Source of the DNA: Gammaproteobacteria bacterium
GTDB taxonomy: Bacteria; Pseudomonadota; Gammaproteobacteria; Xanthomonadales; SZUA-36
Direction: 5' to 3'
Assembly (NCBI GenBank): GCA_021772915.1
Contig: JAJFLB010000018.1
Span: 248,001-312,000, forward strand
Length of the DNA: 64,000 nucleotides
How positions within the stretch are numbered: position 1 is the first letter of the stretch; every line of letters starts with the position of its first letter. The notes under the pieces are model-generated. The model made no database searches. It saw nothing but the letters and a program-made list of their open reading frames with translations, and was not told where the DNA came from. This document shows positions 8,713-36,054 of this stretch, one piece after another. Position numbers and translations under genes: made by a program.

Positions 8713-8730
8713 TTGGGCTAAAATCAGGTT

Positions 8731-8915
8731 GCCCTCTGTGGTGTTGGCCAGTTGGTCCGATAAATGCCTTGTCCCTAATTTGTAATCTCGGGGTGGCAAA
8801 TCTGAATGCTGGTGTGCATGTTCGCCGAAGTGCGAAAAGCCTGAAGCGCGGAGCGCCGTCCCACTTGAACCGTTGGTTCAAGGTAATCCGGCCAGCAGCG
8901 GCATCCACGGAGGGT
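8731..8915 (+). ncRNA. ssrS: 6S RNA
   Basis: About 185 nt between zapA and the 5-formyl-THF cyclo-ligase gene, the syntenic place and size of E. coli 6S RNA (184 nt). The closing stem is visible: CCCTCTGTGG (8732-8741) pairs with CCACGGAGGG (8905-8914) with one G-U pair. The conserved 3' half is present as ACTTGAACCGTTGGTTCAAG followed by GCAGCGGCATCCACGGAG, close to the E. coli sequence. A -10-like TAAAAT at 8719-8724 precedes it and a TTTT run follows. 6S RNA binds sigma-70 RNA polymerase and represses transcription in stationary phase. Confidence 0.93.
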
Positions 8916-8985
8916 TTTCTGTTGCCGCTATTCCTTCCAGTTCTCCTCACTGAGGTCCATCAATTTAACCCGATCCACTTTTTTC

Positions 8986-20468: not shown

Positions 20469-21350
20469 TTAACGCGCCAATCGGGCGCTGATTTCGCTTT
20501 GCGAAAATTTCTGAGCCTGCTTCCCGGTGAGTCCACGGGCAAACAGGGCGGCCCCATAGGCGCCGCAGTACTGGGCATCTTCAACCAGTAAGATTTGGCG
20601 GTCCGGTAGTTTAGCCGCGAACAAATCCATCAGCACCGGATTGAAGTTCATCACCCCACCGGAAAAGACCACCGTGTCGGTTTTGACGCTGGTCATTTCA
20701 AGTATTCTTTGCACCACCGAGGCGTAAAGCGCGTGGATCAGGTTTTCCAGTCGCTCACCCTGCATCAGGATCTTGATAACCTCCTGACCGGAGAACACCG
20801 TGCAGTAGCTGTTGAGCGTCATTTCCTTATCGTGCGCGAGGGCAAGACCCGTCAAATCCCCAAGCTCCACTTCAAGACGATGCGCCAGTTCCTCTATAAA
20901 CGCGCCGGTCCCGGCCGCGCATTTACGATTAATCACAAACTGACCTACGCGGCCATCATGTACTTCAATAATCTTGGAATCCTGGCCACCAATATCGACA
21001 ATCGTGTAGGGGCCTTCGAGTTGTAGTTGCTGCTGGGCACCGAGGAAATGTGCGCTGATTTCGGTCAGTTTGCCGTTGGCGAAATCGATATGATTGCGTC
21101 CATAACCGGTAGCCGCGATGGTGTGGTTATCCCTCACACACTGCTGGTCATCAGTCAGCGGTGAGACGAAGCCGTCAGCCACCAAAGCCTTTCGTACATG
21201 CTCCATCAGCGGGAACAGGGTTCGCCCAATACGCCGGTGTAAAATATTGCCATCGTTGTCACAGGCACAAACCTTGATCTGCGTACTGCCACAATCCACA
21301 CCCCAATAGAGGTGAGCGGAGTCTGCTGATGTCTTGCTGTCAGTCTGCAT
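20469..21350 (-). CDS. ATP-dependent activator of 2-hydroxyacyl-CoA dehydratase type (BadF/HgdC family)
   Basis: A 293-residue ASKHA-fold ATPase. In this family a homodimer holds one [4Fe-4S] cluster and drives a low-potential electron into its partner by ATP hydrolysis. The nucleotide loop is WGVDCGSTQIK (residues 16-26) and a second is VDIGGQDSK. The cluster cysteines are Cys144 (NRKCAAGTGAF) and Cys183 (NSYCTVFSGQE), 39 residues apart as in the HgdC family. The stop of the dehydratase-type gene overlaps its start by one base, so the two are partners. This chemistry is oxygen-sensitive, which is unusual beside aerobic oxidases. Confidence 0.88.
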   Translation of the reverse strand: MQTDSKTSADSAHLYWGVDCGSTQIKVCACDNDGNILHRRIGRTLFPLMEHVRKALVADGFVSPLTDDQQCVRDNHTIAATGYGRNHIDFANGKLTEISAHFLGAQQQLQLEGPYTIVDIGGQDSKIIEVHDGRVGQFVINRKCAAGTGAFIEELAHRLEVELGDLTGLALAHDKEMTLNSYCTVFSGQEVIKILMQGERLENLIHALYASVVQRILEMTSVKTDTVVFSGGVMNFNPVLMDLFAAKLPDRQILLVEDAQYCGAYGAALFARGLTGKQAQKFSQSEISARLAR

Positions 21351-22543
21351 TACAAGGTCTCTACAAAAGCCTCGATGACAGTGGCCGATTGTTCGTCTGA
21401 ATAACAGCGTAAATCACACAGGTCTCCGTTGATGATGACTGCGGGAATCCCACTGTCCCGCAGGCGGGCCGGCAGATTGTACTGGCTGTTGCTGTTATTT
21501 GGACAGGTTTTTGCATCGTGAAAAACCACACCGTCTATGTGGTAGTCAGTCACCAGTTTGCGGATGTACTCTTCCTTGTAGTGGTCATTGCGATTGATAA
21601 ATATCTTGAGGTAAGCCCTCGCCATACTGGGTAGTGGATCGTCACCGTCGAAGTCAGAGAATATCCAGCTGTTGCAGTAAGTCGAAGCGACCACACATGC
21701 CTGGTTATCCCTGAACAATTCCGACAGGCTGCGCAAACGGCCCCAAATCGGCATGCCGTCCCAGTAAATTCGCTTGGTTTCACCCGGCACCGCAGCCTCG
21801 TTAGCATCCACTTTTGATTTCAGCTCTGTCAATAACGACCGATAATAATCGCGCGCAATTTCGGTACCGCGCAATACCACGATGGGCCCCATAAATATTG
21901 TGCCGTCAAAAAAGCTCAGTGGACTTGGGCGTGCCATTGCAGTTTCCAGGACCTCAGCCCACAGGTCCGTCGCTTCCCTGGACAGGGCGCAGGTCTTGCG
22001 TAAATCCTCCTGTACCATGGCCCTGCCCTGCAATTGTTCAAGCACCTTGATCAGGTCCTCAAACTGCGCCACCACATCCGCAACGTGGTTGGTCTCGACC
22101 TGGGGCAGATGGGTGGGTGGATGAATACCAAATACCGGGGCATCAAACTCCTTGCCAAAGTACTCAAACCAATGCATTACGTCCTTACACTGGTTGGTGT
22201 TGTAAACAAGTATATCCGGATTTGGTACTGACTCGATTCCGTAAGCTTTGGTCAATGGTGTGATGCCTTTTTGCCAGGCACCGACATCACTGGTCAGGTA
22301 GCTGCAAATATCCGGCGAATAGCCAAAAGCATTGGCGACGGGAATCGTGTCCATGCAGATTCTCGTCGCACCCAGCATGGCACCGTGATTCTCAGGGAAG
22401 AACACTTCAAAACCCATCGCCCGCAAAATTTCTGCCGGCCCGACCGACGTGCACCACGCGACCCGGCGATCAGGATCGCCGGCAGCCAAGTCCAGATCAA
22501 TAAAGTAATCCTTCATGACCTGCTTCAGGTCCATTGCGGTCAC
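21350..22543 (-). CDS. 2-hydroxyacyl-CoA dehydratase / benzoyl-CoA reductase-type subunit (HgdB/YjiM family)
   Basis: A 397-residue protein of the HgdB/BcrBC/FldBC family, which reduces CoA-bound or other substrates with Fe-S clusters after ATP-driven electron transfer. Candidate cluster ligands are Cys31 in AWCTSVGPAEIL, Cys63, Cys80 (SPDICSYL), Cys119 and Cys347 (HDAKTCPNN). Dehydratases and benzoyl-CoA reductases need two such subunits; only one is encoded here. The single-subunit-plus-activator layout resembles E. coli YjiM/YjiL and the double-cubane-cluster proteins described from Carboxydothermus. It overlaps the acyl-CoA synthetase gene upstream by 4 bp. The reaction is unknown. Confidence 0.78.
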   Translation of the reverse strand: MTAMDLKQVMKDYFIDLDLAAGDPDRRVAWCTSVGPAEILRAMGFEVFFPENHGAMLGATRICMDTIPVANAFGYSPDICSYLTSDVGAWQKGITPLTKAYGIESVPNPDILVYNTNQCKDVMHWFEYFGKEFDAPVFGIHPPTHLPQVETNHVADVVAQFEDLIKVLEQLQGRAMVQEDLRKTCALSREATDLWAEVLETAMARPSPLSFFDGTIFMGPIVVLRGTEIARDYYRSLLTELKSKVDANEAAVPGETKRIYWDGMPIWGRLRSLSELFRDNQACVVASTYCNSWIFSDFDGDDPLPSMARAYLKIFINRNDHYKEEYIRKLVTDYHIDGVVFHDAKTCPNNSNSQYNLPARLRDSGIPAVIINGDLCDLRCYSDEQSATVIEAFVETL

Positions 22544-24315
22544 TTCTTCTCCAGTTCAATGACGTGTGCACCCTTGGGCAGGTCCTCCAGCTGTTGCAAC
22601 TGCAATGCCTGCATGTGCTTACCGAAATCTTCTGAAACCTTACGTGGTATAAGCTTGAATGAGGGGGTTAGCTGGTTGGCCTCGACGGTGAGTTCAGAGT
22701 CCACGACAAGCGCTGCATCGACGCGTTCGAACACGGCGCCATCCTGTTGTTCAGCCCGGATGCATTCACCCAGGCAGTCGGCAAGATCACCCAGGCAGCC
22801 AGGATATTTACAAGTTGACAGATCCAGTTCGCCTCCACCACCGGCCGACATCAGCTCGTGGTTGGGAAAAGCCAGCAATGACGGATGTTTCTGGCCTGAA
22901 CCGAAAACATATGCATACTTGATGAATTTGCAGCGCCCTGCAATACGGTCCTCAATACGTGCCGGGAAAATCTTCTCGCCATTATTCAGCTTGAACATGC
23001 GGTCGAGACGAGAAATGATCTTCAGACCTTCGGTGGTGATCGCCCCCACATCACCAGTCCTGAACCAACCGTCAGCAAAACTCTCTGCGCTCGCCTGCGA
23101 CCGTCTGAAATACCCCCGTGTCACATTTGGCCCTTTCACCAGTATTTCGTTATCGGTGCCGAGCCTAAGCTCAATACCAGGAATGGGAAAACCCACCACA
23201 CCCGGGGTGCGCTCAAGACTGATTTCAGTCAATGTACAGCACGGAGACGTTTCAGTGAGACCCCAGCCTTCAACTACCGGAACCCCCTTGTTTTTAAATA
23301 TTTCGGAAGTACTGATGGGCAGGGGTGCCGCGGCGGTAAAAACAAACTTGAGGTCTTCGTGGAAGAAGTTGGCGCTCAGTTCCGGGTTCGCCAAAATGGC
23401 CGTGACAATTTCCTGGTAAACCTTGGGTACACTGAAATAAACACTGGGTTTTATTTCACTGAAATTCTGTAACAGCCTGTCGACATCCTTACCAAAGGAA
23501 TCGTCGATCGCCAGACAACCACCTGAGTGCAATGCAAATAGCCGCTCAAACAAACCGCCAAAACTATGGTGCCATGGCAGGTAACACAAAAATCGCATCC
23601 CGGGCTCAGGTTGCCACAGGATTTCCAGGGCTTTTTGTTGGGACATCAGGTTGCGGTGAGTTAGCTGTACACCTTTTGGGAAACTGCTTGTGCCGGAGGT
23701 AAACATGATCATCGCCAGCTGATCTGGATTTACCGTCCGCATCCGGCTCGCCAAACCCAGGATATCGCCGGCAGGCTCGTCACGCAGCAGATCATCCATA
23801 AAGCTTACGCTGGCGACCCCGAGGCCGGACAATCTTTCATGCAATTCCGTATCGGCCGTTGCAGCTGTACCCTGCATGGCCACAATCCGGGGTGGCAGAC
23901 AATCACTTCTTAAAGCGACCATCTTTTCAAGATTGTCGGTTACCAAGATGCCGACATCAGCAAAGCCAAGCAAATCTGACATCATGTCAGTTGCGTAACC
24001 CGCGAAAATCGGCACCGCAACCATACCGTTTCCCATGACCGCCATCTCTGCAACCAGACGGTGGTAGCCATTTGCAGAGACAAAAGCCACGCGGTTATCG
24101 GCTGTACCTGACTGGAACTCTTCCCCGCCAGCCACAAAGGCAGCCATTTTGAGTACATCACCCACCATGTCTCGCCAGGACCAGTAACGGTAGCGGCCTT
24201 CCTGCCTTTCGGCAAAAGCGTTCTGGTCACCGTGGCGTTGTGCGTTATTAAGCAACATGGTGCCAATATTTGGTGTTACCTCGCCGAGGGTCACGGAAGA
24301 CTTGAGCCCTTGCAT
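22540..24315 (-). CDS. AMP-forming acyl-CoA synthetase (long-chain type)
   Basis: A 591-residue ANL-superfamily ligase that activates a carboxylic acid to its CoA thioester through an acyl-adenylate. The P-loop-like MIMFTSGTSSFPKGVQLTHRN region is near residue 215. GWGLTETSP follows, then WFRTGDVGAI, and the C-terminal-domain hinge ISRLDRMFKLNNGEKIFP. The C-terminal 110 residues are odd: a Gly/Cys-bearing stretch (SAGGGGELDLSTCKYPGC) replaces part of the usual small domain, though TPSFKLIPRK may supply the catalytic Lys. It is the first gene of a unit with the HgdB-type protein and its activator and probably makes their substrate. Confidence 0.88.
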   Translation of the reverse strand: MQGLKSSVTLGEVTPNIGTMLLNNAQRHGDQNAFAERQEGRYRYWSWRDMVGDVLKMAAFVAGGEEFQSGTADNRVAFVSANGYHRLVAEMAVMGNGMVAVPIFAGYATDMMSDLLGFADVGILVTDNLEKMVALRSDCLPPRIVAMQGTAATADTELHERLSGLGVASVSFMDDLLRDEPAGDILGLASRMRTVNPDQLAMIMFTSGTSSFPKGVQLTHRNLMSQQKALEILWQPEPGMRFLCYLPWHHSFGGLFERLFALHSGGCLAIDDSFGKDVDRLLQNFSEIKPSVYFSVPKVYQEIVTAILANPELSANFFHEDLKFVFTAAAPLPISTSEIFKNKGVPVVEGWGLTETSPCCTLTEISLERTPGVVGFPIPGIELRLGTDNEILVKGPNVTRGYFRRSQASAESFADGWFRTGDVGAITTEGLKIISRLDRMFKLNNGEKIFPARIEDRIAGRCKFIKYAYVFGSGQKHPSLLAFPNHELMSAGGGGELDLSTCKYPGCLGDLADCLGECIRAEQQDGAVFERVDAALVVDSELTVEANQLTPSFKLIPRKVSEDFGKHMQALQLQQLEDLPKGAHVIELEKK

Positions 24316-24936: not shown

Positions 24937-24967
24937 TTCCCGGTGAGCCTGCTCACCGGTCCTACAG
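24937..24967. repeat. REP-like palindrome, copy 6, overlapping the qhpE stop
   Basis: TTCCCGGTGAG-cct-GCTCACCGG followed by TCCTACAG. The stem has diverged from the GACGA form to GGTGAG, but both arms changed together, so pairing is kept. Its TAG (minus strand, 24962-24964) is the stop codon of qhpE. It lies between convergent arfB and qhpE. Confidence 0.7.
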
Positions 24968-25591
24968 CATCGATTGGGCCACGTGCGCCGTGACCCTGGC
25001 ACAGGCGAGTGAGTGTCCCCATAGGTTTACGCCAGGCGGGATATTGTCCAGCTTGCGCGGTGTGCCTCGTGCACGGCAGGAATATGGGCCCGCAGCTTGC
25101 ACATAAATTTCATCTTCTTCCAGCCCATCGTCAGAGACTACACCATAAACACCCGGCAAACAGGCGGGAAGCAAATCCTGGTGCTCGGGGTGACCCGCCG
25201 CCACCAGGGTAGAACCAGCCTTGCGGGCTGCAACACAGGCTTGCGAAATCAACTCGGCACCTTTCGCCGGGGGTAACGCCAGGCTCAAGTTAATAACATC
25301 ACAGCCCTCTGCGGCTGCGCGCAAGATACCCCTTGCAACCAGGGAGGGATAAGTGCTGAGTTCGTTTTCAAACACACGCACGGCAAAAAACGTGGCCGCC
25401 GGGAGTGTCTGTCTCAGCACACCTGCAACAGCCGTACCGTGGCCAACCGGATCACTGAAATCACCGTCTTCACGTATTTTACCAACACCGTCCAGATACA
25501 GCCGACAGCCGAGTACCCGGCCACGGACATGGGAGTGCCACGGGTTGATACCGGTGTCCACAATTCCGATAAGGATTTCGCCAGGCGGCAT
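24962..25591 (-). CDS. qhpE: Subtilisin-like protease, QHNDH gamma-subunit leader peptidase (QhpE type)
   Basis: A 209-residue S8-family serine protease without signal or propeptide. The triad is Asp12 (IGIVDTGINP), His51 (DPVGHGTAVAG) and Ser194 in WGHSLACARV, a variant of the usual GTSMATPHV. In QHNDH operons QhpE removes the leader of the cross-linked gamma subunit in the cytoplasm before export. It follows the ABC exporter gene with no gap and is the last gene of the operon. The protein is short at both ends, and its stop codon is donated by a REP element, so a few C-terminal residues may be lost or added. Confidence 0.85.
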   Translation of the reverse strand: MPPGEILIGIVDTGINPWHSHVRGRVLGCRLYLDGVGKIREDGDFSDPVGHGTAVAGVLRQTLPAATFFAVRVFENELSTYPSLVARGILRAAAEGCDVINLSLALPPAKGAELISQACVAARKAGSTLVAAGHPEHQDLLPACLPGVYGVVSDDGLEEDEIYVQAAGPYSCRARGTPRKLDNIPPGVNLWGHSLACARVTAHVAQSML

Positions 25592-27280
25592 TCAGTTCTC
25601 TTTCTGAAGGTCATGCAGTTCGAAATAGCTGTGTAACTCATCCGGGCTCACCTGTCGTAATCGACCTTCACGCAATAGCAATAGACGGTCAAACTGGTCA
25701 AGCCCTGCGAGTCGGTGACTGATGGCCAAAATGGCGCGATCGGCGAAGGCCTTGAAAAGATTGGTACGTACGCGGGCTTCTGTTTCTGGATCCATCGCTG
25801 AAAATGCCTCGTCCAGTACCAATACGTCCGGATTCATCAGGAATAAGCGCGCCAGCCCCAGGCGTTGACGTTGGCCATCAGAAAGCATTTGTCCGCGTCC
25901 ACCAATAACGGTGTCAAATCCCCGGGGTAGGGAAAGTATGAACCTGTTCGCCTCTGCCAGTCTGGCAGCCTCGACCATGGCTGCAGTTGAGGCCTTCGAG
26001 TTTCCATAGCAGAGGTTCTCTCTGACACTGGCGTGTAGCAGAAAGGGTTCTGACGAAGAATATCCGAGTCTGTCCCAGGAGCCCCCGGTCTGCCTGCCGG
26101 CGGTGACTTTCACATTGCCAACAGTGGGCTTGCGGAGACCAAATATCAGTTGCACGAGGGTGGACTTACCAGCCCCCGAACTGCCAAATACCGCAACCTT
26201 CTCTGCCTGGTCTACCCGCAGATCCAGTCGGTCGAGTACGAGCGTGTCCTGTGCGTATGTAAATGACACATTTTCCAGACAAATTGCAGCCTGCCTGGTC
26301 GTGCCCCTGAAATCAGATGGATAGGCCGCTTCCCCATCACTCATTATCTCTGCTACCCGGTCAAGACTGACTCGGGCTTCCTGCAATGTTCGCACCAGCC
26401 CCAAGAGCCCGGCTGCGGGACCATATAGTCGACCCTGGTAGAGAACAAAAGCGACAAAAGTACCCAGTCCAATCGCACCGCTTTGTAATTGGCCACCACC
26501 CAACAGATAGATCCAGGCCAGACTGATTGAAAGTGCCAGTCCCGGCAACTGGGTTGCCACAGAATCAAGGGTTTGAAATCTGAGTACGCGCCGGACCAAT
26601 TGCGCGTTAATAACCCCGAATGATTCCATGTCCTGCGCTTCTGCGCGGTGGAATCGTACCCCTCTTAGAGCCCCAAGTCGTTCGGCAAGAAAATGCGAGA
26701 GGTCCGCCATTTTCTCCCGAATTCCACGTGTTCCCTTTTCGATGGGGCCGCGAAAAGCAACTGTGAGAACCAGGGCGACGGCCAGACCCACGTAACTCCA
26801 TAGTGCCAGCAGGGGAGAGAGGTAAATCAGGATCGCCGCACAAAGCAGCAGGAACAGCAGGTTGTGCAGAAAACCAATAACGCCATCTACCAGCAAGGCC
26901 TGAATTTGCGGAATATCAGATCCAAACCGGCTCAGCAGGTCACCGTGGCGGAACTTCTCCACCCCGTCCATGCTGGTATACAGACAATGACGAAAAAGCC
27001 TTTGCCTGATTTCCACGAGGATTCCGGCGGACAATCTTGCGTGTAGCCAGCGTGAAACGAAACCAATGATGACATCGGTCAGGGCCAATACGACCAGTGC
27101 TGCAGCGATGATGGGGATCACCTCGTAATCGGCCCGCTCAACCACGGCATCAATAAAGGCCTTGCCAATTAACGGGCTGGACAGGGAGGCTGCCGAACCG
27201 GCAAGCCCCAGTAAAAAGAGACCTGCCAGCGCCTTTTTTCGCTGTCTTAAGTGCCTGGAAAAAAGACTGATGGAACTCAT
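25592..27280 (-). CDS. qhpF: ABC exporter (fused permease-ATPase), QhpF type
   Basis: A 562-residue half-transporter: five or six membrane helices in about residues 15-300, then an ATPase domain. Walker A is GSSGAGKS (366-373), Walker B is VLVLDEAFSAMD, and the signature is LSDGQRQR, a slight change from LSGGQ. It should work as a homodimer. In QHNDH biogenesis QhpF is thought to export the modified gamma subunit to the periplasm. It overlaps the U32-like gene upstream by 4 bp and abuts qhpE, so all three are translated together. Confidence 0.85.
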   Translation of the reverse strand: MSSISLFSRHLRQRKKALAGLFLLGLAGSAASLSSPLIGKAFIDAVVERADYEVIPIIAAALVVLALTDVIIGFVSRWLHARLSAGILVEIRQRLFRHCLYTSMDGVEKFRHGDLLSRFGSDIPQIQALLVDGVIGFLHNLLFLLLCAAILIYLSPLLALWSYVGLAVALVLTVAFRGPIEKGTRGIREKMADLSHFLAERLGALRGVRFHRAEAQDMESFGVINAQLVRRVLRFQTLDSVATQLPGLALSISLAWIYLLGGGQLQSGAIGLGTFVAFVLYQGRLYGPAAGLLGLVRTLQEARVSLDRVAEIMSDGEAAYPSDFRGTTRQAAICLENVSFTYAQDTLVLDRLDLRVDQAEKVAVFGSSGAGKSTLVQLIFGLRKPTVGNVKVTAGRQTGGSWDRLGYSSSEPFLLHASVRENLCYGNSKASTAAMVEAARLAEANRFILSLPRGFDTVIGGRGQMLSDGQRQRLGLARLFLMNPDVLVLDEAFSAMDPETEARVRTNLFKAFADRAILAISHRLAGLDQFDRLLLLREGRLRQVSPDELHSYFELHDLQKEN

Positions 27281-28242
27281 GCAACGACCTCGCCGTTGTC
27301 ATCCCACAGATCGGGGTAATAACAGGCATGCGCGTTATTGCAAAGGGACGCAGCGCCACGAAGCGCGATGGTCCTTGCTCTTATCTCTTCCGATCCCCCA
27401 CCTTTCCGGGCGCTATCCCTGGCCATGGCTGCCAACTGTACTGAGGCAAATTTTCTCTCCAGTGATGCCTCACGCCCGACAACTTTCAAACTACCAATCC
27501 CTGCAGCCTGCAGTTTTGGAATTGCACACAGGCCACAGGGTCCCAATGGATAGCCCCTGCTGGTGTTGCAACCACAATTATTTTGGGTCCACTTCCAAAA
27601 ATCGTAGCGGTCGAGTATCCCCGGCGGCATTTCTTGCAAGCCGTCACCATCTGCCATACAAAAGGCTCCGGCAGCATGCGTTGTCGCACACAAACCCTCT
27701 TCAAAAACACAACCATCGTTAATCAAAAAGGCCTCAAAATCCATCCCCTCGACCACGCATTGAGCAAGCTCCCCCAGGGTCAGATGTCTCGGCAGGATGA
27801 TTCTGGATATCCCCAACTTCCTGAAGAATCGTGAACTGGCGGCATTGGTAGAAGTGGCGAGGCTGGACAGGTGTAATTGTGCTGCGTAGCCCGCTTCAAT
27901 CAGCGCTAACAGGAGATCCATATCAGCCACGATCAATGCTTTGACGCCGAGATCCTCTAACAACCGCCCACCAAATTCGGTAAGCACTTCAGTTGCCCCG
28001 GGAGGGTAGTGGGGGGAGTTCAGCGCAACGTAAACCGGTAGTGAACCGGAAACCGCCAGGATGTCTTTCAGCGCTTGCTCGTCCACCACACCGGCAGACT
28101 CCGGATCCCTTCGGTTGGCCCAGGCCGTCCCAAACTCTTTCTCCCATCCGAGCGGGGCCAGGCCGCAATAAAATTCATCGGCACCGGCGTCGCGTAATGG
28201 CCCGACTTCATTCACATTTCTGACAGGTGAGAGGACGTTCAT
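27277..28242 (-). CDS. U32-family-like protein, possible UbiU-type hydroxylase in QHNDH operon
   Basis: A 321-residue protein with a TIM-barrel-like N-terminal part typical of the U32 family. VGPLRDAGADEFYCGLAP starts the barrel and LGISRIILPRHLTLGEL lies near residue 145. The family's Cys signature is readable as FEAFLINDGCVFEEGLC (Cys178, Cys185), followed by Cys195, Cys223/225 and Cys236/239, enough for one [4Fe-4S] cluster. U32 proteins UbiU/UbiV and TrhP/RlhA are now known as prephenate-dependent, O2-independent hydroxylation factors rather than proteases. It overlaps the qhpF exporter gene by 4 bp. I infer a part in gamma-subunit maturation; function is not shown. Confidence 0.72.
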   Translation of the reverse strand: MNVLSPVRNVNEVGPLRDAGADEFYCGLAPLGWEKEFGTAWANRRDPESAGVVDEQALKDILAVSGSLPVYVALNSPHYPPGATEVLTEFGGRLLEDLGVKALIVADMDLLLALIEAGYAAQLHLSSLATSTNAASSRFFRKLGISRIILPRHLTLGELAQCVVEGMDFEAFLINDGCVFEEGLCATTHAAGAFCMADGDGLQEMPPGILDRYDFWKWTQNNCGCNTSRGYPLGPCGLCAIPKLQAAGIGSLKVVGREASLERKFASVQLAAMARDSARKGGGSEEIRARTIALRGAASLCNNAHACYYPDLWDDNGEVVA

Positions 28243-28264
28243 GTACTACTTCCGGACCTGGCAG

Positions 28265-29092
28265 TCATGCTGCAGGCCGTTCATGCAAAACCACCCGGTC
28301 AGCGAGTTCTAAATGCCGTGCAATCCACTTGGGCGGAGCTTTGAAAAACACGGTGTTTCCTGCTCGCCACAGCTCCTTTTGAGTGTCCTGGCGAAGTTCC
28401 CGCCGGCTGACCCCACGGCAAGGGGCATTGCAACCTGAGCGTAATCCCTGGGTAAAAACACCTTGTCCGGCAGGCTTGGAGGCGGCTTTCTCCAGGCAAT
28501 TTCTACCGGAGGCAACAAAGGTGAAAGGAATATGCAAAGTGCGTTGCAGACCGTTTGCGTAACCACCCAGATAGCCCGGCTCCAGGTCCGCATCTGACTC
28601 CACTGCCGTTACGCCCAGTGAAATCGCCAGTTTTCTAATTCCCTTTCCCCGATTGGTGTTCTCACCTGCAGACACCGGAGTCTGCATTTCAAGTCTTGGA
28701 TCCCGCAACCCCCGATTTATAAGACGTCCCATTCGTAACGACAGCGCAGGGTAGTGCTTACTGAGCAAGTCAAAAACGCCCCAGTCGTTAAAGACCACGG
28801 CCGGGGAACAGCCCCGCTGTTCCAGGGCGTCAAGCAGATGGGTCAGGCCAGTCAGGCCCCGGTTGGTGGCCAGCGGTGTTAGCAATACGGCTTGCAACTT
28901 ATGCTCTGCACAATGGGCGCAAAATGCCTCGGCATCGTCCGCACAGGGTATCAGCTCCTGGCAAAACTCCGAGCCAAAATAGAGTGCTGTTAGCGGTCCC
29001 TCAGGACACAGTTCCCACAGTGTTGGGTCGCAGAATTCACGGGGCCCTTTTGAGGCATTTTCCAGCGAATTAAGACGTAGCGCGTATTCCAT
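28265..29092 (-). CDS. U32-family-like partner protein, possible UbiV-type
   Basis: A 275-residue Cys-rich protein, shorter than its downstream neighbour, lying between the beta-subunit gene (17 bp gap) and the other U32-like gene (22 bp gap). The middle section (AVVFNDWGVFDLLSKHYP and MGRLINRGLRDPR) resembles the barrel strands of UbiV-like proteins. Candidate cluster ligands are Cys199 (SGRNCLEKA) and the CxxxC of Cys221/Cys225 (GCNAPC), plus one of several N-terminal Cys (21, 29, 44, 50). The C-x3-C spacing matches the C-terminal pair of UbiV. Similarity is moderate and was judged by eye, so the family call is tentative; the gene's place in the operon is certain. Confidence 0.6.
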   Translation of the reverse strand: MEYALRLNSLENASKGPREFCDPTLWELCPEGPLTALYFGSEFCQELIPCADDAEAFCAHCAEHKLQAVLLTPLATNRGLTGLTHLLDALEQRGCSPAVVFNDWGVFDLLSKHYPALSLRMGRLINRGLRDPRLEMQTPVSAGENTNRGKGIRKLAISLGVTAVESDADLEPGYLGGYANGLQRTLHIPFTFVASGRNCLEKAASKPAGQGVFTQGLRSGCNAPCRGVSRRELRQDTQKELWRAGNTVFFKAPPKWIARHLELADRVVLHERPAA

Positions 29093-29109: not shown

Positions 29110-30123
29110 CTAGTTAGACAGGCGTTTGAAATCCATACCGTCTGTTTCCATCTGCAATACCGTAACGGGCTTCAGCGTCTGTGCATCGTATACGGTGGTC
29201 GTTGACCCTCCACCGGCAACGTAGATCTTCTTGCCGTCGCTGGAAACATTGATGGCATAATTGGTACCCCCTGGTATGGGTAACACGGCGTCATAGCTGC
29301 GGGTTTCCAGATCAATAACCGTGAGTTCATCCATGACAGCATAGACTTTCTTTTTGTCCGGTGAACGCATGACACTGTAGGCAAAGACCGGTGGACCTTC
29401 GAGTGGGGCGTCGGTGATTTCACCACTGTTGGTGTCAATGGAAACCAGTCCCATGTACTCGGGAGTATAGTAGTTGACCATGAATACGCCGCCATTGTCC
29501 CTGGTGTTGTCCCACAGTGGCAAAATATTCCATTGCTTGGCAAACATGGGATAGGTGCCGGTGATTCGCATTTGCTCACCGGCAACGTCCACTTTGACAA
29601 TGTCTTTACCAATCACATAGATGCTACTGGCATTTTTTATCGAAACCAGCGACACCGAACTCCATGGCACTTCGATGCTGCGTAAGATCCGCCCATCCGC
29701 AAGGTCAATTTGCGCCAACACGGGGGCGGTTACTTCAATTTCTCCCCTGTGAGTGGTCCGGGAGATGAGGTTGGCAAACGCGCTCTTACCGTCCGGGGCA
29801 AGGTCAAATCCAAAGATGAATCTATCCCACACACCGCTGCTCACATCGATCGTTCCGACGACTTCCTGATTTACAAGGTCAACCTTATGAATTAAGTGTC
29901 GTTTGGCGACCACGTAGAGAAATCTGCCATCGGCACTGAATTCTGATTCTCTCAACCAGCCATCCACCGGGATGTCCCCCACAATGGCGTCGCGGTCGCC
30001 ATCAATCACCTGAATCATCCCGTAACCGATGTAATAGAACACATCCTTAGCCAACGCATGGTGGGAACTCAGTCCCATCACTATTGCGATGATTATCGGC
30101 AACATTGCCATTTTCATTTTCAT
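29110..30123 (-). CDS. qhpB: Quinohemoprotein amine dehydrogenase beta subunit (beta-propeller)
   Basis: A 337-residue periplasmic protein: signal peptide MKMKMAMLPIIIAIVMGLS...ALA, then a seven-bladed YVTN-like propeller. Blade repeats are readable as GRFLYVVAKRHL, KIYVAGGG and KKVYAVMDEL. In QHNDH the beta subunit packs against the alpha and gamma subunits and helps form the active site. The ribosome binding site AAGGAG (30132-30137) lies 8 bases before the ATG and is part of the terminal repeat of MITE-like copy B, which separates this gene from qhpC. Confidence 0.88.
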   Translation of the reverse strand: MKMKMAMLPIIIAIVMGLSSHHALAKDVFYYIGYGMIQVIDGDRDAIVGDIPVDGWLRESEFSADGRFLYVVAKRHLIHKVDLVNQEVVGTIDVSSGVWDRFIFGFDLAPDGKSAFANLISRTTHRGEIEVTAPVLAQIDLADGRILRSIEVPWSSVSLVSIKNASSIYVIGKDIVKVDVAGEQMRITGTYPMFAKQWNILPLWDNTRDNGGVFMVNYYTPEYMGLVSIDTNSGEITDAPLEGPPVFAYSVMRSPDKKKVYAVMDELTVIDLETRSYDAVLPIPGGTNYAINVSSDGKKIYVAGGGSTTTVYDAQTLKPVTVLQMETDGMDFKRLSN

Positions 30124-30421: not shown

Positions 30422-30754
30422 TCAATCGTATTTGAGTTCACGCCAATCTCTGGCGACATTTGCGCATTGCTTATCAAAATCCTGGTGGTTGGTTAAACCA
30501 TCCGGTACCTGTGCAGGCCACCAACAATCCCCGGCACATCCATGAAAATCTTTCGCTGAGGACTGGCAGTTTCCGACCGGGTAAGTAGGCCGCGGGTTGG
30601 TCTCCCAACCCGTATCAAAGATCGTGGTACAGCCCACCGGCATGGTGGGGGGGCCTTCCTGTAGCGCCTCAACCGATTTTTCCTCACCCTCGGCCAAGGA
30701 TTGGATAGCCCGGGCTTTTTCATTCAATGCCTGGATCGGTCGTGTCTTCTTCAT
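30422..30754 (-). CDS. qhpC: Quinohemoprotein amine dehydrogenase gamma subunit precursor (CTQ protein)
   Basis: A 110-residue peptide precursor: a charged leader of about 37 residues, then the catalytic subunit. All cross-linking residues known from QHNDH can be placed by spacing: thioethers Cys42-Glu51, Cys63-Asp69 and Cys77-Asp85, and the cofactor cysteine tryptophylquinone from Cys73 and Trp79 in HGCAGDCWWPAQVPD. An extra Cys97 is unpaired. QhpD makes the thioethers, QhpE cuts the leader and QhpF exports the product. Trp79 needs two oxygen atoms, normally added by QhpG, which this operon lacks. CAGGAGA precedes the ATG. Confidence 0.95.
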   Translation of the reverse strand: MKKTRPIQALNEKARAIQSLAEGEEKSVEALQEGPPTMPVGCTTIFDTGWETNPRPTYPVGNCQSSAKDFHGCAGDCWWPAQVPDGLTNHQDFDKQCANVARDWRELKYD

Positions 30755-30775: not shown

Positions 30776-32173
30776 TCAGCACTGCGCACGCTGTGCAAGC
30801 CGTTGGCCCATAGCCTCTATAGCACCATCCGTACGCAACTCGGCATAGGTCTGTATACCTATGTCCAGCCATCCACGGATAAACTTACAACTGGTTCCGC
30901 GGGGCAGACCCAGTTGGTTTTCACGCAAATAATTCTCGTAATGGCATCCGCCGGCACAAAACGCCCTGGCCCAGCACTTTGAGCAACTCCGGTCACGACC
31001 CCTGTTCAATGCGCCAAGTTCGAGTTTGATTTTGTCCGAGTTGATACCGGTCGCAAGATTTCCGGCCTTGAAATTCGCTTCCCCTGCCAAACGGTGACAT
31101 GGAAAAAACTGCCCCTTTGCATCCACGGCCATGTAACCCAGGCCCGCACCGCAAGACGCCTGTTTGGTTTGTCCGAGGTGAAGTCGGCCCAGCAGGTCAA
31201 GAATATTGGCGAAGGGCATGACCTGCCCTTTCCTGGCAGCGGTAACAAACCGCCCGGCCAGCAGACCAAAGCCTTGTAGCAATGCCTCTTCCTGAGCGGG
31301 GGTGGGTAGCAGTGCTTTGTTAACCGGACTTACTGGCGCAATGCCCACTTCATGCAAGCCAAGACGGACAAGGTGATCGAAAACCTCGACCACACTATCC
31401 CACTGATCAGGTTCAAGGGTGACCCTGGCCGCGACCGGAACCGGTGAGTCCTGCAGCAACAGTCCCAAACGTGAGACTATTTGCGCATAGGATCCATCGC
31501 CTTTTTTATCCGGTCGGTTACGGTCATGAATATGTCTTGGACCGTCCAGGCTCAAGGCAACCGAAACCTGGTTATCGTGCAGGAAATCAATGATTTCGGC
31601 ATCCAGCAGGGTGCCATTTGTGGTCAGTGAAAAATGAACTTTTTTGTCGATTTTATCGGCGTGGGAAATTGCCTCGCTGGCAGCGGCTTCCACGGCGGGC
31701 ATGTTCAATAAGGGTTCACCACCGAAAAACACCAGGCTGACATGTTTCTGATCACCCGAATTATCCAGCAGATAACGTGCTGCCTGACGTGCGGTCTCCG
31801 GGTCGAGAAGACAGGGCGCAGCACCATAGGTACCCGCCCCGGCGTAACAATAGGTACAACGGAGATTACAATCCTGGGCAACTTCCAGCACCAGAGTAGA
31901 AAGTGGTACTTGCCCCGGCTGGGGTTGTGGGGGTGAGTGCTTTTTACGTGTGGCCGGAACAAGGACTCGCGCATCCCGCAAGCCTTCCAGCACCTCCTGG
32001 TCCGCCAGGGGTACCTTATCCGGATCAACCAGTCTGGACTTGCGCCATTTGCACAAGGTCTCATGTGCCTGAGGTGTCAGGGAAAACAGACTCGCGTCAT
32101 CCACTGCAAAGATGATCGGGTCCCCGGACCCTCCAAGAACACGATGGTCTGCCCAGGTGAGCAGTTGCTCCAT
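30776..32173 (-). CDS. qhpD: Radical-SAM thioether-forming maturase, QhpD/PeaB type
   Basis: A 465-residue radical SAM enzyme with an N-terminal peptide-recognition region (about 1-90). The radical-SAM CxxxCxxC is CNLRCTYC (Cys102, 106, 109), and GGEPLL follows in the barrel. The C-terminal SPASM-type region includes CGAGLG, FPCHR and CSKCWARAFCAGGC, binding auxiliary clusters. In known systems it forms the Cys-to-Asp/Glu thioether bonds in the gamma subunit. It shares a base with the qhpA stop codon (TAATG) and lies 21 bp before qhpC. Confidence 0.93.
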   Translation of the reverse strand: MEQLLTWADHRVLGGSGDPIIFAVDDASLFSLTPQAHETLCKWRKSRLVDPDKVPLADQEVLEGLRDARVLVPATRKKHSPPQPQPGQVPLSTLVLEVAQDCNLRCTYCYAGAGTYGAAPCLLDPETARQAARYLLDNSGDQKHVSLVFFGGEPLLNMPAVEAAASEAISHADKIDKKVHFSLTTNGTLLDAEIIDFLHDNQVSVALSLDGPRHIHDRNRPDKKGDGSYAQIVSRLGLLLQDSPVPVAARVTLEPDQWDSVVEVFDHLVRLGLHEVGIAPVSPVNKALLPTPAQEEALLQGFGLLAGRFVTAARKGQVMPFANILDLLGRLHLGQTKQASCGAGLGYMAVDAKGQFFPCHRLAGEANFKAGNLATGINSDKIKLELGALNRGRDRSCSKCWARAFCAGGCHYENYLRENQLGLPRGTSCKFIRGWLDIGIQTYAELRTDGAIEAMGQRLAQRAQC

Positions 32174-33747
32174 TATTTTAGCCTCTGGATATAATCAGGC
32201 ACGGTTACGACCAGTTTTCCTTCTGCGGTATGAGTTGATCCCCCCCCCACATATACGGCCACAACCTTAACCAAACCGGTACCTTCAGTACCGAAATCAC
32301 GGCTGGGAATCGGGTTGTAATCACCAGACGGCAAGTAGGTACCTGCCTTCGAAATGGTACCAAGGTGTTCAAGATCATCATCACCGGGCCGCGTCTTTTC
32401 CTCGACCAGACTGAAGTTTGCAGCCACCGGGCCCAGTAGATAGTCATCCAGGGGATCGTCAAGGTCTGCGCCACTGGAGTAAGCAAGTGCCTGAAACTGA
32501 ACCCCCTCCGCCGGATAGTTTTGGCCACCGCTCACCCTGGCTCGACCGGTTGGGGGTGTGACTTTCAGGTAATCAACACCCGGCGCCAAACTCAATACCA
32601 ATTTCGGGCTGGCATTATTACGCCCTCTCAAACTGACATCAGCCGTACCGTGGCCTGTACCCCCGTAGGTGAGTACTAATTCAATTGTTTCAGGACTGCT
32701 GGTTATAGCCTGTAACACCTTTACGTCGGCCGAGGACACGACAATGTCCTTTACTGTTACTTCAGGAAACCCAAAGCCTTCCAGCAGAACTTTTGTTTTC
32801 TCTCCAGCGAGCAAAAAGCCCGGGGTCATGCGTAAGGGCCGGCCTCCAAATGTGCTGGCAAACCACTTGGAGGACGAAGTGCGAAAGTGCGGTGCATGGT
32901 GATGGTGCTCACCGACGATCGTTCCGTCCAGGAAACTGAATGCACCCATGGTGGCACTGCCATTTTGGCGCGCACGGGTCCGCAATGCGTAACCGCCGTA
33001 AAGTGTGGCTTCACCGGTAAAAGATTCGAAGGTCCCGTCCGAATAGTTCAGGACACCCTGCAATACGTATTCGTCATCCCCTTTTGGCCTCAGCGAGGCC
33101 TTGCCACGGTAATTGCCCTTTCCGGGTTCGACCCCGAGCAGGAACCACTCGCCATCGGGTTTCGCATCGGGAGCCTGCCAACCGCGGTCGTAAGGTAGTT
33201 TTTGCGCGAGACCCTGCAGGGCCTTATCCGCTTCAGAGCGCCAATGCATCTCCCGCATCTGGTACATGATGGCCGGATCCATGTAGAGATGAAAATCACG
33301 CAGCTTTTGCCAGGCTGGTTCTGTCATTCGATAGGAATAGATTTTACCGACGCTGTGACAACGAACACAGGTTGCAAACAGTTGCTCCTCCTCGGCGTCA
33401 TTGGGTGCTTCCACCGTCTGGGGATTGTTGAATAGATTGAGGTAAGCGACCCTCTCTTGCTCTTCGGGACTCAATATCTGGGTACTACAAAGTTCCTTCA
33501 ACAAAATGGCCATCTCACCATCCCTGATACGCATACCATGCAAACGCCGCATGCGATCAACAATGACGGTCCACTCTTCGGGCGTGGTGCGCATTGCCTC
33601 GACACGGGCGATCTTCCCGCTTTGGGCCGAATGACAAATTGTGCATTTTTTCCAGACCAGGGAATTGTCGTCAAAGGCACCTGTAATGCCAGTCTGCGGT
33701 AACAATGCGAGGATCAAAAAAATCAGTGGTGGTAACGTGATGTTCAT
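32173..33747 (-). CDS. qhpA: Quinohemoprotein amine dehydrogenase alpha subunit (diheme)
   Basis: A 524-residue periplasmic protein from the start chosen here; signal peptide MNITLPPLIFLILALLP...GITG. Two heme c sites follow: CTICH (Cys35-His39) and CVRCH (Cys127-His131). The rest is a string of beta-sandwich domains. The enzyme oxidises primary amines to aldehydes and passes electrons from CTQ through these hemes to a cytochrome or cupredoxin. An upstream GTG at 33798 would add 17 residues before the signal peptide, so the ATG at 33747 is preferred. It heads the operon. Confidence 0.92.
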   Translation of the reverse strand: MNITLPPLIFLILALLPQTGITGAFDDNSLVWKKCTICHSAQSGKIARVEAMRTTPEEWTVIVDRMRRLHGMRIRDGEMAILLKELCSTQILSPEEQERVAYLNLFNNPQTVEAPNDAEEEQLFATCVRCHSVGKIYSYRMTEPAWQKLRDFHLYMDPAIMYQMREMHWRSEADKALQGLAQKLPYDRGWQAPDAKPDGEWFLLGVEPGKGNYRGKASLRPKGDDEYVLQGVLNYSDGTFESFTGEATLYGGYALRTRARQNGSATMGAFSFLDGTIVGEHHHHAPHFRTSSSKWFASTFGGRPLRMTPGFLLAGEKTKVLLEGFGFPEVTVKDIVVSSADVKVLQAITSSPETIELVLTYGGTGHGTADVSLRGRNNASPKLVLSLAPGVDYLKVTPPTGRARVSGGQNYPAEGVQFQALAYSSGADLDDPLDDYLLGPVAANFSLVEEKTRPGDDDLEHLGTISKAGTYLPSGDYNPIPSRDFGTEGTGLVKVVAVYVGGGSTHTAEGKLVVTVPDYIQRLK

Positions 33748-33885
33748 CTCATTTCCCGGGTAGCGTGCAAAACACTTCTGCCCGGCAGTGATCTTCACAA
33801 AACTTCACTGCCGCCACCCGCCCCGAGTGTCTGCCCCTGGGTTGTCGCCCAAATTTCAAAATTTTGCTAATCTGTAGCAACAATT

Positions 33886-33956: not shown

Positions 33957-34631
33957 ATGGATTTGCACATGCAGAAAAAAAAACAAGCCAGCCGCGCCCG
34001 CACCGCCACTTACGAAAAAGGCCAGGCACGTATCGAAGCCATCCTGGATGCCGCCCTGGAAGTATTGATTGGCCAGGGTTACAAGAAACTGACACTCAGA
34101 CAAATTGCATTACAGGCAGGCATCAAGGTAGGTAATCTCACTTACTACTACCGCACCAAAGAATCCTTGCTCAAGGACCTGCTGGAGAAGATCCTGTCCA
34201 CCTACCTCGTTGAAATGGAACGTATCGTAGCTGCCAGCGGTGACTCACCGGAGGATGGTTTTGTTGCGGTTATTGAATATCTGATTGAGGACTTGAATAC
34301 CCAGAGGACTACAAAATTCTTTCCCGAGCTGTGGGCACTGTCAAATCATGACGATTACACGGCTGAACTGATGGAGAATATGTATGCTGCAGAGAGGCAA
34401 GTCATAGAGAAATTGATACGGGCCATCAACCCGGAACTCAACAAGCAACAAACAGGCGACCTGGCGTTGTTTATCTCCTGTTCTATTGAGGGAATGACAA
34501 TGTTTGTAGGTGCGGGCAAAAAGCAGGAAGATACCCTTCAGACCATGAAGAGGATCGCCTGCAAGAGCTTTATGCACCTGATTGCAAAAACGAGTCCCAG
34601 TGACAGTAAGCGTAACCAAAAATCACCGTAA
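33957..34631 (+). CDS. TetR-family transcriptional regulator, divergent from the QHNDH operon
   Basis: A 224-residue regulator. After a basic N-terminal tail (KKKQASRARTATYEKGQ), the helix-turn-helix spans about residues 25-70: RIEAILDAALEVLIGQGYKK, then TLRQIALQAGIKVGNLTYYY. The C-terminal ligand domain contains FFPELWALSNHDDYTAEL, as in regulators of amine and fatty-acid genes. It is divergent from qhpA with 209 bp between them, so it probably controls the QHNDH operon. Described QHNDH operons use an AraC-type regulator (QhpR), so a TetR protein here would be different. No good ribosome binding site is seen before 33957 or the in-frame ATG at 33969. Confidence 0.85.
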   Translation: MDLHMQKKKQASRARTATYEKGQARIEAILDAALEVLIGQGYKKLTLRQIALQAGIKVGNLTYYYRTKESLLKDLLEKILSTYLVEMERIVAASGDSPEDGFVAVIEYLIEDLNTQRTTKFFPELWALSNHDDYTAELMENMYAAERQVIEKLIRAINPELNKQQTGDLALFISCSIEGMTMFVGAGKKQEDTLQTMKRIACKSFMHLIAKTSPSDSKRNQKSP

Positions 34632-34721: not shown

Positions 34722-35144
34722 TTACAGACCCAAATTCTTCTTCCTCTCCATAATCTTGAGCATGGTTCCAAGCGTGATTGAACGCAGGGTCGCCTGCATC
34801 ATTTCGGTGATTTCGACAAGCGCGAGCGCGAGTCCGGCTTCCACGTCCGTGCCATGGACCAAATTCCGGTCTTCAAACCCTTCGATCGACACGGGTTCAA
34901 ACAGTTCGATCACATCCATCAGGGTGTTGCGCTTGGTATTACCGCAAAATCGATAACCGCCGCCGGCACCACGCACCGCCTGGAGAAAACCAGCTCTGAC
35001 CAGGGTACGTAACACCTTCGCCAGATGGTTGATGGATACCCCAAACTTCTCCGCAATCGCCGCTGCGGACAGTTGCCCACCATCGGCCTTGGCGAGTTCC
35101 AGGACAGCATAGAGACCCAGAAGCGTTGACTGCTGGAGATTCAA
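34722..35144 (-). CDS. Rrf2-family transcriptional regulator
   Basis: A 140-residue winged-helix regulator of the Rrf2 family. It contains TLLGLYAVLELAKADGGQ, SAAAIAEKFGVSINHLAKVL (recognition helix) and GFLQAVRGAGGGYRF (wing), all typical. The three Cys that hold a [2Fe-2S] cluster in IscR, RsrR and NsrR are missing; only one Cys is present, near residue 67. It therefore probably senses something other than a classic Rrf2 cluster. Its start overlaps the stop of a GNAT acetyltransferase gene by 4 bp. Confidence 0.88.
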   Translation of the reverse strand: MNLQQSTLLGLYAVLELAKADGGQLSAAAIAEKFGVSINHLAKVLRTLVRAGFLQAVRGAGGGYRFCGNTKRNTLMDVIELFEPVSIEGFEDRNLVHGTDVEAGLALALVEITEMMQATLRSITLGTMLKIMERKKNLGL

Positions 35145-35596
35145 AGATCTCTCTCCAACTGCACAAATGGACCGGCCATCATCCCCTGGCTGCGAAAAAA
35201 CGAGTGAAAATCATGATTCTTGCGATACACCATTGTACGAACCTTGGTCACTCCCGCCGTTTTGAAAAAATCGCACATCGCATCGTAGAGTTGTGTAGCA
35301 ATACCCCCGAGCCTGACATCCGGCCTCACACCCAGGGCAAAAATCCAACCACAGGGGTGGGAACCGAATTCCCAGTCCCTGACTTCGCCAATGATGAAAC
35401 CAACGATTTCAGGTCCTTCTTCACAGACCAGGAAAAGCTGTTTGCTCTCCTCGTCACCATAACGAGCGAACATTTCCTGCCAATAGCGAGGATTCGAGCC
35501 CTTGTTACTGCGCTCATCGAAGGTCATGATGGCGGGCAAATCAGACTCCTTCGCCTTGCGAATACCATAGCTGACCTGTGCGTTTTTGGAGCTCAT
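35141..35596 (-). CDS. GNAT-family N-acetyltransferase
   Basis: A 151-residue acetyl-CoA-dependent acetyltransferase. The acetyl-CoA loop is VRPDVRLGGIATQLYDA near residue 90, preceded by VGFIIGEV of the central sheet. The acceptor is unknown; GNAT proteins modify amines, proteins or antibiotics. It forms a two-gene unit with the Rrf2 regulator and is divergent from the MIP18-type gene, with a shared promoter region of 95 bp. Confidence 0.85.
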   Translation of the reverse strand: MSSKNAQVSYGIRKAKESDLPAIMTFDERSNKGSNPRYWQEMFARYGDEESKQLFLVCEEGPEIVGFIIGEVRDWEFGSHPCGWIFALGVRPDVRLGGIATQLYDAMCDFFKTAGVTKVRTMVYRKNHDFHSFFRSQGMMAGPFVQLERDL

Positions 35597-35654
35597 TTAC
35601 AAACGTGATTTATGTGTAAAACCATTACAAAACCTGGGTTTTAGCTTAATTACA

Positions 35655-35666
35655 TATTATAGTACC
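35655..35666. promoter_or_regulatory. Promoter/operator candidate TATTATAGTACC between GNAT and MIP18 genes
   Basis: On the minus strand this reads GGTACTATAATA and contains a perfect -10 box TATAAT for the GNAT-Rrf2 unit. The same 12-mer occurs at 50649-50660 in the thiolase promoter. The flanking TAGTACCATTTTACTA has 5-bp inverted arms. It may be bound by the Rrf2 regulator. Confidence 0.35.
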
Positions 35667-35691
35667 ATTTTACTAATTTAACGGACAACGA

Positions 35692-36054
35692 GTGACAAAG
35701 AAGATCAACTACGAGGACCTGCTGGTTCCCTACCTGGAAGGCAATGCCGACTCACCACTTGAACCACAGGTGATTGAAGCCTTGCGTGGCGTATACGATC
35801 CGGAAATCCCCGTCAGTGTGTTTGATCTCGGTCTGATCTATGACTTGCGTTTCTTTGCCGGGGGTAAGATTCTGGTCCTCATGACACTGACTGCACCGGC
35901 CTGCCCCGTGGCCGATGAGATTCCCGAGTGGATCAAGACGGCGATTTTACAGGTTGAAGGTGTTGAAGATGTTGAGATTGATTTGACCTGGGAACCGTTC
36001 TGGAAACCTGAGTATATGACCGAGGCAGCACGGCTTGAGTTGGGGATGTTTTAA
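35692..36054 (+). CDS. MIP18/SufT (DUF59) family protein
   Basis: A 120-residue protein of the DUF59/MIP18 family, which includes SufT, PaaD and Cia2 and helps Fe-S cluster delivery. Typical motifs are VIEALRGVYDPEIPVSVFDL and the Cys-containing LTAPACPVADEIPEW, whose Cys is the conserved functional residue. The start is a GTG at 35692. An Fe-S assembly helper fits a region with many Fe-S enzymes (radical SAM, U32-like, molybdenum hydroxylase). It stops 5 bp before a fold-back repeat. Confidence 0.85.
   Translation: MTKKINYEDLLVPYLEGNADSPLEPQVIEALRGVYDPEIPVSVFDLGLIYDLRFFAGGKILVLMTLTAPACPVADEIPEWIKTAILQVEGVEDVEIDLTWEPFWKPEYMTEAARLELGMF

Follow-up and report, generated by a model that had tools for sequence, protein, structure and literature searches.

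A U32-like protein pair as the probable counterpart of the flavoprotein QhpG in a group of quinohemoprotein amine dehydrogenase operons

The window analysed here, a stretch of 64,000 nucleotides from a Gammaproteobacteria bacterium (assembly GCA_021772915.1, contig JAJFLB010000018.1, positions 248,001 to 312,000), carries on its minus strand a complete operon for quinohemoprotein amine dehydrogenase (QHNDH), in the order qhpA-D-C-B, two extra genes, and qhpF-E. The gene for the di-haem alpha subunit, qhpA (32173..33798), was recognised by the Pfam models Dehyd-heme_bind (95.6 bits), Qn_am_d_aII and aIV, with NCBIfam QH_alpha as a second basis (262.3 bits, slightly below its cut-off of 274.35). 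It is followed by qhpD (30776..32173), encoding the radical S-adenosylmethionine (SAM)/SPASM maturase, with NCBIfam quino_hemo_SAM as best match (E 1.2e-94, below cut-off); by qhpC (30422..30754), for the gamma subunit (NCBIfam QH_gamma, 123 bits, above the cut-off of 50); and by qhpB (29110..30123), for the beta-propeller beta subunit (NCBIfam QH_beta, E 1e-27, below cut-off). Beyond the two extra genes lie qhpF (25592..27280), encoding an ABC exporter (Pfam ABC_membrane and ABC_tran), and qhpE (24962..25591), encoding a subtilisin-like leader protease (Peptidase_S8; NCBIfam QH_SP, E 7e-34, below cut-off). Since QH_alpha, QH_beta, quino_hemo_SAM and QH_SP all scored below their NCBIfam cut-offs, an automatic annotation might overlook a large part of the operon. 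The original prediction, made from the DNA letters, was that all QHNDH genes are present in order with no flavoprotein gene among them, and the coordinates and family matches agree with this: no flavoprotein gene was found within the qhp operon of the window.

The two extra genes, which we call U32B (28265..29092, 275 amino acids) and U32A (27277..28242, 321 amino acids), are open reading frames (ORFs) between qhpB and qhpF, the U32A stop overlapping the qhpF start by 4 bp (ATGA). Both had been described beforehand as U32-like; their position and the overlap stood, and recognition by family models held for U32A but failed for U32B. U32A matched Pfam Peptidase_U32 with 90.1 bits (E 1.7e-25, cut-off 22.4) and the NCBIfam UbiU model at E 2.3e-15, yet with 56.6 bits, below the equivalog cut-off of 440. 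The UbiU and TrhP models matched all 39 aligned U32A relatives at E<=0.001. U32B matched no Pfam or NCBIfam model, UbiU and UbiV included; two of its 43 aligned relatives touched Peptidase_U32 (best E 0.04), and no convincing Pfam or NCBIfam match was seen among those relatives. In profile-profile comparisons, made one pair at a time, U32A met UbiU over its length (probability 99.8, E 6.1e-28), TrhP (99.6) and UbiV (91.5), and U32B met U32A (probability 40, E 3.0e-4), UbiU (6.9) and TrhP (0.8). A sequence search of the PDB with U32A gave nothing useful.

AlphaFold2 models, built from the alignments of 39 U32A and 43 U32B relatives, had predicted local distance difference test (pLDDT) values of 86.5 for U32A and 90.5 for U32B. 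Structure prediction had been proposed as a check on the pair, and it gave a predicted U32 fold for each protein, with the U32 protein 5d88 as the first PDB match of both: at E 4.4e-6 for U32A, and at E 2.9e-5 for U32B with template modelling (TM) scores of 0.49/0.54, chitinase barrels following from 4.4e-5 upwards. Judged by its sequence matches, U32A is a UbiU-like U32 protein. U32B has a predicted U32 fold, and we assign it to U32 tentatively, from this fold, its weak profile similarity and its cysteine pattern. On a tree from which U32B was left out as too divergent, 38 U32A sequences formed a clade of their own (support 99), apart from UbiU, UbiV and TrhP. As the source genome encodes separate UbiU, UbiV and TrhP-like genes elsewhere, the U32 pair of the operon comes on top of these.

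UbiU and UbiV each bind one [4Fe-4S] cluster, the ligands in UbiV being C39, C180, C193 and C197 (PMC6747719). Four conserved cysteines in each partner can be aligned with these UbiU/UbiV cluster positions, at low confidence for U32B. In U32B, C44, C199, C221 and C225, invariant in 43/43 relatives, were placed on C39/C180/C193/C197 of UbiV by a relaxed, low-confidence alignment, the confident stretch of which takes in the first cysteine alone. In U32A, C178/C185/C195/C223 were placed on C169/C176/C193/C232 of UbiU by an alignment of the same relaxed kind; C178, C185 and C195 are present in 38/38 relatives and C223 in 35/38, the other three having a cysteine at the C225 position. Four further U32A cysteines beyond the UbiU set (C236, C239, C301 and C307) are invariant in 38/38, making seven invariant and one nearly invariant cysteine in sum and leaving room for a second cluster in U32A.

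In the known operon QhpG, a flavin adenine dinucleotide (FAD) protein, alone puts two oxygen atoms from O2 into the unmodified tryptophan of cross-linked QhpC (PMC7876137). A QhpG homologue elsewhere in the genome that completes CTQ had been named as something that would refute the U32 pair doing this work, and none was found by either search made of the source genome (completeness 97.96%): a Pseudomonas plasmid QhpG used as reference, whose own match to PDB entry 7ctq (‘Peptidyl tryptophan dihydroxylase’) has E 1.8e-153, gave only short pieces (best 30 residues, E 0.08), and a two-row QhpG profile gave nothing at E<=0.001.

A QhpC scan over genomes of 84,980 species returned at least 558 confirmed relatives, of which the best 80 loci were analysed. 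Forty carry both U32B and U32A, five U32B only, 24 QhpG and 11 neither; recurrence of both U32 genes in 40 of the 80 returned loci excludes a chance association. Three of the U32B-only loci (L021, L046, L048) break off inside U32B or directly behind it, a fourth (L040) has a 100-N gap in U32B, and L037 is unexplained. U32A comes after U32B in 40/40 loci, with a 4-base overlap in 25. In 34/40 the two genes are flanked by qhpB and qhpF; in the other six they are placed elsewhere, or qhpB is undetected. Within the locus stretches QhpG was found in none of the 45 U32 loci. When ORFs from 41 U32-type and 25 QhpG-type loci were clustered, U32B was present in 41/41, U32A in 40/41 and QhpG in 25/25, and no other addition was as constant. 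A third constant gene of the 41 U32-type loci, which might have been the real hydroxylase, was not recognised among the 45 largest ORF clusters, many of which consist of ORFs on the strand opposite known genes and were not each checked. Besides the pair, one recognisable gene limited to the U32 type was picked out, in 11/41 loci versus 0/25 of the QhpG type. It encodes a small multihaem cytochrome-like protein, NrfH/NapC-like by eye (e.g. L041:11427-12017 and L037:8275-8838), which may link the dehydrogenase to the quinone pool as an electron carrier. Two loci were rejected from their apparent types: at L072 the U32A profile had picked up an ordinary UbiU/UbiV pair (103.9 and 19.5 bits) that lies on the edge of the locus, and L008, on a Rhizobium plasmid and first labelled QhpG-type, had no QhpC match and was excluded from the counts. 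At L008:7965-10744 a QhpD-like radical SAM gene lies beside a QhpG-like monooxygenase gene, with a tyrosinase-family gene nearby.

Mutual exclusion of the pair and qhpG, suggested originally as the outcome of a survey of QHNDH operons that would favour replacement, was upheld both in the loci and genome-wide. QhpG was found in 0/45 U32B-bearing QHNDH genomes, its best score there being 32.9 bits versus 227-502 bits for nine QhpG genes that lie outside loci, and U32B in 0/33 QhpG-bearing QHNDH genomes; thus pair and QhpG were exclusive in 78/78 genomes carrying either. The 45 genomes comprise the genomes of 38 U32 loci (out of 45), together with G436 (L046), G437 (L048) and G373 (L031, counted through G373 as the same genome from matching gene coordinates), and G000, G332, G392 and G409; L045, L025, L027 and L055 are left out of this genome-wide QhpG search, G372 and G375 were equated with the genomes of L016 and L015, respectively, and counted once, and L043 and L038 are, by record name, one assembly. 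The 33 comprise 24 with QhpG in the locus, three with it elsewhere (G432, G433, G434) and six found among 398 genomes drawn evenly from the phylum. Among 369 genomes drawn evenly from the class, U32B scored at least 202 bits in exactly the two with QhpC, three others reaching 21.3 bits at most, and it was found in none of nine genus or family relatives that have no QhpC, some of these genomes being incomplete. G332, G392 and G409 have a qhp locus without the pair, yet carry U32B elsewhere in the genome, in G332 with the pair some 30 kb away from qhpC (L180:3695-10711). The neighbours of the G332 pair, by eye, are a nitrate/nitrite-transporter-like major facilitator superfamily gene, a sensor kinase, a response regulator and a gene like that for 3-deoxy-D-arabino-heptulosonate 7-phosphate synthase, an enzyme of the shikimate route, which leads to prephenate.

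Going by record titles, loci of the U32 type come from Pseudomonadota, Thermodesulfobacteriota, Bacillota, Acidobacteriota and Nitrospinota, the QhpG type being found here almost only in Pseudomonadota. Members of the U32 type include Desulfobacterales, Desulforhabdus and Geobacter, groups of anaerobic sulfate and iron reducers, in which a maturase that needs O2 would not be expected. On a QhpD tree the 29 QhpG-type rows fell in one clade (support 97), with the U32-type loci L010 and L093 just outside it, and a concatenated tree of QhpD, QhpC and QhpA (71 rows) showed one type change (support 94). Many independent switches of type were looked for and not found; there is one on the concatenated tree, and of the two on the QhpD tree, which has a non-QHNDH outgroup, L008 accounts for one. 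That the U32 type is the older of the two is a guess. L066, labelled Nocardioides marinus, falls within a Leisingera clade on the QhpD tree and is probably a mislabelled or mixed assembly.

The substrate is conserved across both types. QhpC of the window has the tryptophan of the cysteine tryptophylquinone (CTQ) cofactor, W79, its partner C73, and the thioether residues C42-E51, C63-D69 and C77-D85, a pairing which we take over from the known QHNDH structure; all nine are present. These CTQ and thioether residues are the same in 49/49 U32-type and 29/29 QhpG-type QhpC sequences, save one D85 gap among the 49. The sole position that separates the types is 75, which is Gly in 43/49 of the U32 type versus Asp in 29/29 of the QhpG type. 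In mature-subunit numbering this is Asp39, where the Asp39-Met51 loop begins; the QhpG study docked this loop into QhpG (PMC7876137).

We consider it probable that the U32 pair does the work of QhpG, dihydroxylating Trp79 of QhpC without O2 and probably with prephenate as oxygen donor. This reading draws on the analogy with UbiU-UbiV, together with the genome evidence above and the conserved substrate: UbiU-UbiV can replace the ubiquinone flavin hydroxylases (UbiI, UbiH, UbiF), taking oxygen from a source other than O2 even in air (PMC10470549), and a review gives prephenate as the UbiUV oxygen source, structures and mechanism being lacking (PMC11574389). In such a scheme, U32B and U32A would form a two-protein complex as relatives of UbiV and UbiU, acting in the cytoplasm after, or together with, thioether cross-linking by QhpD. 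The complex would add two hydroxyls to Trp79 of the QhpC precursor (Trp43 of the mature subunit). For this it would use [4Fe-4S] clusters, and the oxygen would come not from O2 but from an organic donor, in all likelihood prephenate. QhpE would then cut off the leader and QhpF export the subunit, and conversion of the dihydroxylated tryptophan to CTQ would follow in the periplasm, in line with what has been proposed for the known system. We infer complex formation, the clusters, the hydroxylation, its independence of O2 and the nature of the donor. A fuller version of the proposal is offered only tentatively, at somewhat less than even chances: this would be the first known O2-independent hydroxylase of a protein residue, fed by prephenate, having one cluster in U32B and up to two in U32A and adding both oxygens to one tryptophan, and would be the older route, for which QhpG was substituted once, in aerobic Pseudomonadota.

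In place along the pathway the pair resembles QhpG (PDB 7ctq), both being encoded as qhp maturation genes for the gamma-subunit tryptophan, but QhpG is an O2-using FAD protein of another sequence and fold. With UbiU-UbiV it shares the arrangement of two U32 proteins encoded side by side, the alignment of U32A with UbiU, and four invariant U32B cysteines that are alignable with the UbiV cluster ligands. It differs from them in that U32A forms a separate clade, scores far below the UbiU cut-off and has extra invariant cysteines, that the pair lies in a qhp operon, and that the gene order is inverted, U32B coming first here and ubiU first in E. coli. The RNA hydroxylases TrhP and RlhA belong to the same fold family (U32A with TrhP, probability 99.6) but are single proteins acting on RNA, and U32A is a clade apart from TrhP with another cysteine spacing. 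The Paracoccus and Pseudomonas qhp operons have in common with the window the structural, cross-linking, export and protease genes and the cofactor residues, with QhpC 45% and QhpD 33-34% identical; they differ from it in that the window has the U32 pair and no qhpG.

Several observations weigh against the replacement of QhpG by the pair. To our knowledge, no U32 protein is known as a hydroxylase acting on proteins. The U32-type share among the 80 loci is inflated, these being the nearest to the window, and the single change on the trees means that the exclusion reflects one replacement faithfully kept on both sides, not many. Five QhpC genomes have neither system (G413, G418, G431, G425 and G426); G413 has a 100-N gap inside qhpB, and the two Bryobacterales genomes, G425 and G426, also have no qhpD match in their loci. 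In the Bryobacterales loci (L060:4781-7726 and L059), qhpA, qhpC and qhpB stand without detectable maturation genes nearby, in genomes without QhpG or U32B. The TM-scores of both models are modest (0.41-0.54) and other barrel proteins come at similar E-values, so the fold match by itself lacks specificity; in the U32A model, residues 179-195, two of the cysteines among them, have pLDDT below 50. For U32B, the profile comparison with UbiV reached a probability of only 26 (E 7.2e-4), falling to 0.5 against the single E. coli UbiV sequence, and a global alignment mode failed to align the U32B and UbiV cysteines.

Other roles for the pair have to be weighed against this reading. The pair might do the first tryptophan hydroxylation only, and a different activity, for instance that of the alpha-subunit haems, might supply the second oxygen; in MauG/GoxB-type systems, likewise, a single oxygen is added by the maturase. 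Tryptophan tryptophylquinone (TTQ) and LodA/GoxA do take their first and second oxygens from different sources (PMC7876137), and UbiUV is credited with hydroxylating several positions on one ring (PMC10470549, PMC11574389), so that either split of the two oxygens is possible; QhpG, on the other hand, adds both oxygens alone and is the sole constant gene replaced, and we regard a division of labour as unlikely. U32 proteins are named peptidases, and QhpG is described as also aiding the reaction of QhpD (PMC7876137), which is why the pair might instead serve as a cross-linking helper, as an Fe-S or electron donor for QhpD, or as a peptidase, while some unlinked enzyme, whether O2-using or not, hydroxylates the tryptophan. 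However, the known protease QhpE is kept beside the pair in most U32-type loci, pair and QhpG exclude one another in all 78 genomes that have either, and the U32 type includes groups of anaerobes; a different role of this sort seems to us quite improbable.

It could also be that the U32-type QHNDH has no CTQ at all, the pair making another tryptophan modification or none, and the enzyme working differently. The set is indeed divergent, with the alpha and beta subunits, QhpD and QhpE below the NCBIfam cut-offs, and the Gly in place of Asp at QhpC position 75 would fit such a change. Against this, the CTQ and thioether residues are conserved and the gamma subunit scores above its cut-off, and we consider an enzyme without CTQ highly improbable.

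Biogenesis of the tryptophylquinone of QHNDH has been described as O2 chemistry. If U32 proteins do replace QhpG, CTQ could be built without O2, which would explain the presence of a quinone amine dehydrogenase in sulfate- and iron-reducer lineages, and U32 hydroxylation would reach proteins, beyond lipids and RNA. QhpC would then be a soluble, genetically encoded substrate for in vitro study of the unsolved U32 mechanism. The qhp operon also illustrates clearly how, within one operon, a step that depends on O2 and one that apparently does not can be swapped. No report of U32 proteins with tryptophylquinone or QHNDH, or of O2-independent tryptophylquinone formation, was found in a literature coverage without most subscription journals and all bioRxiv preprints.

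The surroundings of the operon hold further features. A TetR-family gene (33957..34631, plus strand; TetR_N, TetR_C_6) is divergent from the operon and, as a guess from position alone, might regulate it. On the same flank, at 34722-36054, are genes for an Rrf2 regulator and an FeS_assembly_P protein. Adjoining the other end of the operon (20469-24315) are genes for a 2-hydroxyglutaryl-CoA dehydratase D-component-like protein, a BadF/BcrA-type ATPase and an acyl-CoA ligase, a set usually tied to oxygen-sensitive chemistry. Promoter-like sites were at chance level (5 seen, 5.2 expected), terminator-like sites numbered 18 against 10.7 expected, and a 6S RNA gene lies at 8730-8917 (88.3 bits).

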